Positions 38,019-38,874 of a DNA stretch of 42,995 nucleotides are shown in pieces. Within the stretch, counting starts at the first letter, position 1. The number at the start of each line of letters is the position of its first letter. This stretch comes from Paraglaciecola sp. (GTDB lineage: Bacteria; Pseudomonadota; Gammaproteobacteria; Enterobacterales; Alteromonadaceae), in NCBI RefSeq assembly GCF_030730205.1, contig NZ_JANQVQ010000186.1, positions 1 to 42,995 on the forward strand, read 5' to 3'. The position numbers and the translations under genes are program-made. Under the pieces are notes generated by a model. That model saw nothing but the letters and a program-made list of their open reading frames with translations. It was not told the DNA's origin and did no database searches.

Positions 38019-38426
38019 TTAATGCCTAGCTTGAGTCAGATCATTCAGAGCAGAAATGGCCTCTTGGGCTTGCTCACTCGGCACAAAAATATGATCGTGA
38101 TAATAAGCGGCGACCACATTGGCACTGATGTTTGCATCCGCTAATGCCTTTGATACTGCTGCGGTTAAACCCACCGCTTCAAGGCTAGAATGCACGTTCA
38201 AAGTAATACAGCGGTAGATGCCCGAATAGTGTAATTGCGCAGCCTCTGCTTGTGATCTTTGCAAAATTAAGGTTGTCCCTTCTGACTCCTCAAACAGACC
38301 TTTAGGTGAGACGCCCAAACTCGATACCGTTTGAGCGTGAGCGACTGTACAAAACACAAACTCTTCGACTCCTAAGCTTGGTGCCATTGACGTCAATAAC
38401 ACCTTTAACTCTTTTTCGCCTGACAT
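38019..38426 (-). CDS. ACT-domain protein
   Basis: A 135-residue soluble protein made of two ACT-like halves. The second half is the clearest, with H-S-S-L-E-A-V-G-L-T-A-A-V-S-K-A-L-A-D-A-N-I-S-A-N-V-V. ACT domains bind amino acids or small ligands and usually regulate enzymes. Stand-alone copies of this type are widespread and uncharacterised. I chose ATG 38426, which has an AGGAG site 6 bases upstream, over GTG 38432. It begins 13 bases after the SMR exporter gene stops, so it is in the riboswitch-controlled transcript. Whether it senses guanidine-related metabolites is an open guess. Confidence 0.88.
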   Translation of the reverse strand: MSGEKELKVLLTSMAPSLGVEEFVFCTVAHAQTVSSLGVSPKGLFEESEGTTLILQRSQAEAAQLHYSGIYRCITLNVHSSLEAVGLTAAVSKALADANISANVVAAYYHDHIFVPSEQAQEAISALNDLTQARH

Positions 38427-38439
38427 ACTCACTCCTACT

Positions 38440-38751
38440 TTACAAAAATTTAAGACCCACTACGCCTGCTAATATCAAACCATAAAACACATAATGCTGT
38501 TTTAAGATAGGCTCTGAAAAAAAGCAGGAATTAAGAACAGATATACTGATCACGCCCACGCCCACCCATATGATATAAGCATGCCCGATGGCGATATCTC
38601 GCAGTGCTAGGGTAAATAAATAGAGACTTAACACCATACTAATGACGGCCAGCGCCACGTAAGGCGTTTTACTTAGTGAGTCAGATTGTTTCAAACCCAG
38701 CACCCAACCAGCTTCACATACACCAGCTAATAATAGAATAAACCAAGACAT
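38440..38751 (-). CDS. gdx (sugE): SMR-family exporter, Gdx/SugE guanidinium type
   Basis: A 103-residue inner-membrane protein with four transmembrane helices, the standard small multidrug resistance size. The essential proton/substrate Glu is in A-G-V-C-E-A-G-W-V-L-G-L-K. The helix-3 segment G-H-A-Y-I-I-W-V-G-V-G matches the Gdx/SugE subtype (G-T-A-Y-A-V-W-T-G-I-G in E. coli) rather than EmrE. Gdx proteins are dual-topology dimers that export guanidinium in exchange for protons. The guanidine-II riboswitch directly upstream strongly supports this specificity. The AAGGGG ribosome-binding site lies 6 bases from the ATG, within reach of the second riboswitch hairpin. Confidence 0.93.
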   Translation of the reverse strand: MSWFILLLAGVCEAGWVLGLKQSDSLSKTPYVALAVISMVLSLYLFTLALRDIAIGHAYIIWVGVGVISISVLNSCFFSEPILKQHYVFYGLILAGVVGLKFL

Positions 38752-38763
38752 AGCTTGCCCCTT

Positions 38764-38848
38764 AGTTGATGGGGTCGTCCCCAGAAATTAAGGTTGTGTG
38801 GCCTGTGTACATACAACCAAAGGCCACTTGATGAGGTCGTCCTCACCA
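38764..38848 (-). promoter_or_regulatory. Guanidine-II (mini-ykkC) riboswitch
   Basis: On the minus strand two short hairpins each show an ACGA loop. P1 is TGAGG-ACGA-CCTCA (38832-38845) and P2 is TGGGG-ACGA-CCCCA (38770-38783), both followed by TC. Two small stems with ACGR loops joined by a linker define the guanidine-II class, where each loop binds guanidinium. The linker here is 48 bases and contains GTGGCCT/AGGCCAC arms. After P2 comes AACTAAGGGGC, the exporter's ribosome-binding site. The CCCC of P2 can pair with that GGGG when P2 is open, giving a simple on-switch by guanidine. Confidence 0.93.
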
Positions 38849-38865
38849 CAACAAACTACCAGTCG

Positions 38866-38874
38866 AAGATAGCA
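38866..38874 (-). promoter_or_regulatory. Candidate extended -10 promoter for the gdx transcript
   Basis: On the minus strand TGCTATCTT resembles an extended -10 element, 18 bases upstream of the first riboswitch hairpin. No clear -35 box is seen. Read-through from the methyltransferase gene is the alternative. Confidence 0.3.

Follow-up and report, generated by a model that had tools for sequence, protein, structure and literature searches.

The stretch analysed here, a window of 42,995 nucleotides, raises the question of whether a pair of short hairpins in front of a small exporter gene forms a guanidine-responsive riboswitch, although the RNA scores below the cut-off of the corresponding Rfam model, and of which pairing would then hide the ribosome binding site. 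RNA and gene lie on the minus strand, as do all features given below, and the hairpins sit between a methyltransferase gene on the other flank of the RNA (39561-38908) and the SMR-family gene gdx (38440..38751, start codon at 38751). The upstream hairpin, P1 (TGGTGAGG-ACGA-CCTCATCA, 38829..38848), has 8 bp including one G-U pair; a 45 nt linker (38784..38828) separates it from P2 (TGGGG-ACGA-CCCCA, 38770..38783), which is apparent from the sequence, from the extraction of arrangements described below and from a permissive Rfam search. The Shine–Dalgarno (SD) sequence AAGGGG (38758..38763) was read from the sequence 6 nt 5′ of the ATG, and the distance of the hairpin pair to the gdx ATG is 18 nt. 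A simple scan of the minus strand between 38400 and 39100 found no promoter. The first-pass annotation had reported two ACGA hairpins upstream of an SMR gene, and the pair is indeed present at 38848-38770: counting GGACGRCC hairpins whose stem has 5 bp or more and requiring two of them within 100 nt, we found one pair in the window versus none in 300 dinucleotide shuffles, in which single hairpins of this kind occur with a mean of 0.027 per shuffle.

The 103 aa product of the ORF 38751-38440 matches the Pfam SMR family (PF00893) with 64.3 bits. Of 20 NCBIfam families SugE comes out on top, with a score of 62.9 bits that stays below its cut-off of 126. Its best relative of solved structure is the sequence of PDB entries 6wk5, 6wk8 and 6wk9, named Gdx-Clo (PMC9574504), and a genome-wide protein scan found no relative. 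The residues E13, W16, S42, Y59 and W62, counted in the translation, are all present and occupy the same positions in a gap-free alignment with Gdx-Clo and the E. coli Gdx/SugE protein, with which the window protein shares the SMR family while differing in its SugE score below the cut-off. A stack of W16, S42 and W62 holds the central glutamates (PMC9574504), and W16 is conserved in Gdx while Qac proteins carry Gly or Ala at this position (PMC7695847). Assignment to the Gdx subtype is supported by these residues as read from the translation, and export of guanidinium is predicted. The gene directly behind gdx (38019..38432) encodes an ACT-domain protein (Pfam ACT_3 and ACT_7) and is probably on the same transcript. 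A relative of this ACT gene follows gdx in three other loci (L002, L003 and L004) among the 30 searched, our own included, and for this reason the ACT gene may belong to a guanidine-controlled operon.

Both hairpins of the window RNA are GC-rich stem-loops with ACGR loops, and they are placed immediately 5′ of the SD sequence of a Gdx-type SMR gene. This is the arrangement of the guanidine-II (mini-ykkC, RF01068) RNAs, with two GC-rich ACGA hairpins just before the SD sequence of a guanidine exporter or carboxylase gene; the linker of the class is complementary to the SD sequence, and the window linker has a candidate segment of this kind. Such an RNA precedes the SMR gene in 18 of the 30 related loci compared, the window counted among them. 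Taken together, architecture and context make the identity as a guanidine-II-type riboswitch near certain, as far as the sequence can tell, and the class and the Gdx-type exporter named in the first-pass annotation are borne out by the ACGA hairpins, by the RNAs of related SMR genes and by the Gdx residues including W16. Guanidinium binding and kissing of the two loops are established for the class and are predicted for the window RNA.

The first-pass annotation had named a significant covariance match as a check, and this check fails at Rfam's gathering score. At this score, which is an operational test and no structural feature, RF01068 has no match in the whole window, and a permissive search of 601 bases returned it twice, the stronger match with 22.9 bits (E = 0.021), the weaker with 15.7 bits (E = 1.1), compared to a cut-off of 32. 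The weaker match is P1 alone while the stronger one joins P2 to a linker hairpin that is taken for P1. The RNA thus stays below the cut-off because its 45 nt linker folds a hairpin which the model reads as P1. The earlier description was accurate concerning the two hairpins and their place but missed this third one and with it the reason for the low score. The linker hairpin (GTGGCCT...AGGCCAC, 38798..38827) has a 7 bp outer stem starting 1 nt behind P1, and it is this insertion that makes the window linker longer than those of its relatives. The linker folds with −14.1 kcal mol−1 (z = −2.24), a stability equalled in 2.7% of 300 dinucleotide shuffles, and the 14 nt that remain up to P2 (38784..38797) are unpaired when the linker is folded alone. 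With the hairpin formed the linker keeps 15 unpaired nucleotides, as compared to whole linkers of 12–18 nt in 83 of the 94 arrangements described below, and the switch should therefore still work. A close comparison is L002 from the same genus (68% protein identity), which shares P1, P2, the SD sequence, gdx and the ACT gene behind it, and whose linker end CAACCTTATAT is by eye similar to that of the window, CAACCTTAATTTC; it differs by a 15 nt linker devoid of a hairpin. The linker hairpin is not a degenerate P1, as the Rfam alignment would have it, since its loop does not read ACGR and just upstream of it there is a perfect P1. Neither is it a repeat element: the surrounding 66 bases have no second copy in the genome, and the arms GTGGCCT/AGGCCAC occur one further time, with a different loop.

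How unusual is such a linker? RF01068 is detected in 13 of the 22 genomes of the genus (E up to 0.1, the weak match of the own genome included), 11 of them above the cut-off, and in 108 of 395 genomes of the family (E up to 0.01), a stricter filter under which the own genome has no match; 91 of the 108 score above the cut-off and 17 have no match above it. From 150 loci we extracted 94 distinct P1-linker-P2-ORF arrangements, window included; the loci that gave none had a stem shorter than 4 bp, no nearby ORF start, a duplicate sequence or no such RNA. Behind these RNAs we find 77 SMR genes (phmmer), 11 biotin-carboxylase-like genes (assigned by reading the N-terminus by eye), one PACE-type gene and five unrecognised frames. 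The linker measures 12–27 nt in 92 of the 94 arrangements, the exceptions being L193 with 39 nt and the window with 45 nt; most of this set was found with the covariance model, which biases it towards short linkers. The spacer of guanidine-II RNAs has been described as variable in length (PMC5486947) with a reported range of 7–40 nt (PMC7544219), and the window linker lies outside this range. An updated consensus was built from 1977 bacterial examples, and the word linker is absent from the main text of that paper (PMC12335538). Another study found no tandems of guanidine-II with other riboswitches (PMC9481103). A literature search for guanidine-II linker length or an extra hairpin, whose scope lay outside the founding papers (PMC5340285, PMC5558903), yielded nothing on linker hairpins among the matches listed. 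A guanidine-II riboswitch in front of gdx is ordinary, the class being known; the unusual variant is the long, hairpin-bearing linker.

Two hairpins spaced 38–68 nt apart, the pattern used to search for the long-linker form, occur in 3 of 393 related genomes, within the genus only in the genome studied here (22 genomes), and in at least 120 stretches of a public genome collection. Among the matches listed, 190 were found again, and 17 of these (16 distinct linkers, window included) precede relatives of genes associated with guanidine-II RNAs: 10 SMR, three carboxylase-type and three PACE-type genes follow the 16 linkers. In one of these RNAs, that of L171, the stem of P2 comprises no more than 3 bp. 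All 16 of these linkers have a hairpin in their minimum free energy (MFE) structure that begins 0–5 nt behind P1 and whose last pair lies 5–20 nt before P2, two hairpins being present in L113 and L164. Shuffled linkers would be expected to give 4.7 such cases (P = 2e-9 if the 16 listed are independent); retaining one member for each of 11 groups, which we delimited by the names of the organisms or the similarity of the sequences, the P value is 1e-6, or 4e-6 when the window is left out. The folding z score is negative for each of the 16 listed linkers, with a mean of −1.75, though below −2 in only five. Outside the hairpins they retain 6–22 unpaired nucleotides (mean 12.9), but since shuffled linkers leave a mean of 10.6, unpaired length by itself is no evidence of selection. 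The RNAs from Azospirillum (L152, L104, L101) and from an Afipia and a Hyphomicrobiales genome (L107, L115) resemble that of the window in having a linker hairpin no more than 5 nt behind P1, followed by P2, an SD sequence and a gdx-type gene, while their hairpin sequences are unrelated to it. The Azospirillum RNAs differ further by a CCTCC at the end of P2 that is placed opposite a GGAGG SD sequence; the same CCTCC faces GGAGG before gdx in L272, L281-L289 and L297-L299 of this family, and, judged from these motifs, would suit a switch in that lineage in which P2 and the ribosome compete for the SD sequence.

In a follow-up in the families of the A. brasilense genome (82 genomes) and of the Afipia genome (391 genomes) we found 28 further loci in which the RNA is followed by a related gene; they are not independent of the 16 long-linker RNAs, and 19 of them obey the same hairpin rule. 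With linkers of at least 30 nt 16 of 19 pass, with linkers of 20–25 nt three of nine. The three longer linkers that fail also have a hairpin near P1: in L308 the P1 stem is short and the hairpin begins at 8 nt, and in L292 and L313 a second hairpin extends to P2. Covariation did not support the hairpin in either family. For the Azospirillum family (10 equal-length sequences of 29 matches) 92.5% of cells were paired versus 90.9% after shuffling, with 52 of 500 shuffles as high, and the covariation score was equalled in 139 of 500; for the family of the Afipia genome (six of nine matches) the values were 79.6% versus 80.8%, the score being equalled in 397 of 500 shuffles. The recurrence of the long, hairpin-bearing linker before related genes hints at a recurring architecture. 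We would propose only tentatively, and with more doubt than conviction, that long-linker guanidine-II RNAs are a distinct and repeatedly evolved form, in which the P1-proximal hairpin might hold the single-stranded part of the linker close to its usual length, orient P1 towards P2 in advance and tune affinity or cooperativity, and which models trained on short linkers would undercount. In the set of 94, five RNAs with linkers of 19–20 nt (L251, L256, L264, L269 and L270) carry a mini-hairpin of 3–4 bp located 0–1 nt behind P1, which may be the linker hairpin in miniature.

Which pairing would hide the ribosome binding site? In a published model the linker itself carries the anti-SD sequence (PMC9094411, PMC9300104), and in the kissing form it has to span 49 Å (PMC5486947). 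For Gloeobacter violaceus, a stem-loop that overlaps with P2 as well as with the ribosome site was suggested (PMC5486947), while a P0 helix was described with mutants in Pseudomonas aeruginosa (PMC9561414), and a 20 bp deletion at P2 gave constitutive gdx expression in E. coli (PMC13064478). We compared, across the 94 arrangements, the pairing of each region with its own partner to that with partners permuted between arrangements, permutations that ignore relatedness; the partner was always the 24 bases behind P2, and the regions compared were the final 20 nt of the linker, the six bases of the 3′ strand of P2 and 30 upstream bases. Complementarity of linker and SD region gives the stronger signal, with a mean of −7.14 versus −5.53 kcal mol−1 for permuted partners (z = −7.6); 28 of the 94 rank within the best 10% of their cross-pairs. 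It is weak for the P2 3′ strand (z = −3.1; 12 of 94 in the best 10%). Upstream bases show no enrichment (z = +0.8; 8 of 94), which discards P0 as a common mechanism. The possible P0 pairing of the window itself (AGUUUGUU, 38850..38857, with GGCAAGCU, 38759-38752) is strong, −12.8 kcal mol−1, a value reached by four of 93 foreign regions.

The MFE structure of the window RNA has −52.7 kcal mol−1. In it P1, P2 and the linker hairpin are intact, the candidate anti-SD segment CCUUA (38789..38793) pairs with UAAGG (38764-38760) around P2, and the P0 helix is added. The unpaired probabilities along AAGGGG are 0.02, 0.00, 0.00, 0.01, 0.28 and 0.04. We consider it likely that this RNA acts as a translational ON switch of the guanidine-II type for the Gdx-subtype exporter gene that follows, operating by an anti-SD segment in the linker. 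Without ligand, the single-stranded CCUUA would pair with the SD sequence UAAGG around the folded P2 and keep the ribosome off, possibly helped by the P0 helix. Guanidinium would cause the ACGA loops of P1 and P2 to kiss and the stems to align end to end, and the linker, thus pulled straight, would let go of the SD sequence so that Gdx can be made. Both this release step and the part played by the linker hairpin are inferred. When the linker is kept open during folding, the A that begins the SD sequence is unpaired with a probability of 0.94 and the second A with 0.40, while the G residues, at 0.06–0.23, are mostly paired upstream; the ON state is therefore not reproduced by folding alone.

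The first-pass annotation had favoured a different switch, in which the 3′ strand of P2 opens in the absence of ligand and its CCCC (38774-38771) pairs with the GGGG (38761-38758) of the SD sequence, the ligand restoring P2 and freeing the ribosome site. The gap of 9 nt that it gave between the two is correct, and the complement of four C-G pairs is perfect. When duplexes are considered in isolation, those of the window even favour this pairing: CCCC/GGGG has −7.7 kcal mol−1, with eight of 93 foreign regions as good, compared to −5.6 kcal mol−1 (26 of 93) for CCUUA/UAAGG within the free 14 nt, and the linker/SD duplex, unexceptional in the window, also reaches −7.7 kcal mol−1 (21 of 93) when bases of the linker hairpin are drawn upon. 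The suggestion for G. violaceus is similar in kind (PMC5486947), the weak enrichment in the 94 arrangements goes in the same direction, and the CCTCC of the Azospirillum family offers a parallel. However, the best fold containing the CCCC/GGGG pairs has −47.8 kcal mol−1, 4.9 kcal mol−1 worse than the MFE structure, the enrichment is below that of the linker, and relatives such as L003, L005 and L010 lack a GGGG before gdx, the region pairing with the linker instead. A P2/SD switch in the window is possible in principle and has a precedent in print, but in our view rather unlikely.

The linker hairpin could also be taken as a sign that the RNA is a broken, non-switching remnant, the insertion uncoupling P1 from P2 so that gdx is no longer under guanidine control. 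The score under the Rfam cut-off and the restriction of the long linker, by pattern, to one of 22 genomes of the genus would fit such decay, but neither hairpin nor its loop shows a defect, the unpaired stretch of the linker is of a usual length, the gdx gene is intact, and elsewhere long linkers with a hairpin are again found before gdx-type genes, all of which makes decay highly improbable. More improbable still is a guanidine-II switch whose linker hairpin acts as an expression element of its own and takes part in switching through pairing of the loop GGUUGU with an ACAACC that overlaps the anti-SD segment. These 6 bp are complementary and, once formed, leave the two A residues of the SD sequence unpaired with probabilities of 0.78 and 0.43. 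On the other hand, the corresponding fold has −46.1 kcal mol−1, 6.6 kcal mol−1 less stable than the MFE structure, and the complement is found in a single sequence and lacks covariation. Formed as a pseudoknot on top of the 7 bp stem, moreover, it would leave no nucleotide to cross the stem, hence loop pairing and stem are probably exclusive.

The window switch would represent one more guanidine-controlled exporter, as predicted from its class. What may be of wider importance is its linker: going by this example, guanidine-II RNAs would tolerate a third hairpin and perhaps make use of it, the standard model misses this RNA, and the influence of linker geometry on kissing-loop switching could be examined on a natural case. 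Beside the SMR genes, guanidine-II-like hairpin pairs were also seen before PACE-type transporter genes (L113, L164, L151 and L269), assigned by the Pfam BTP domain on fragments of L151, L113 and L269, and by tblastn to L269 in the case of L164; a literature search for guanidine-II together with a PACE transporter found none. Finally, in L086, L128 and similar loci matching the pattern, records of Actinomycetota type, GGGGACGACCCC hairpins are repeated; tblastn finds no related gene behind these hairpins, which are probably unrelated GC-rich repeats.
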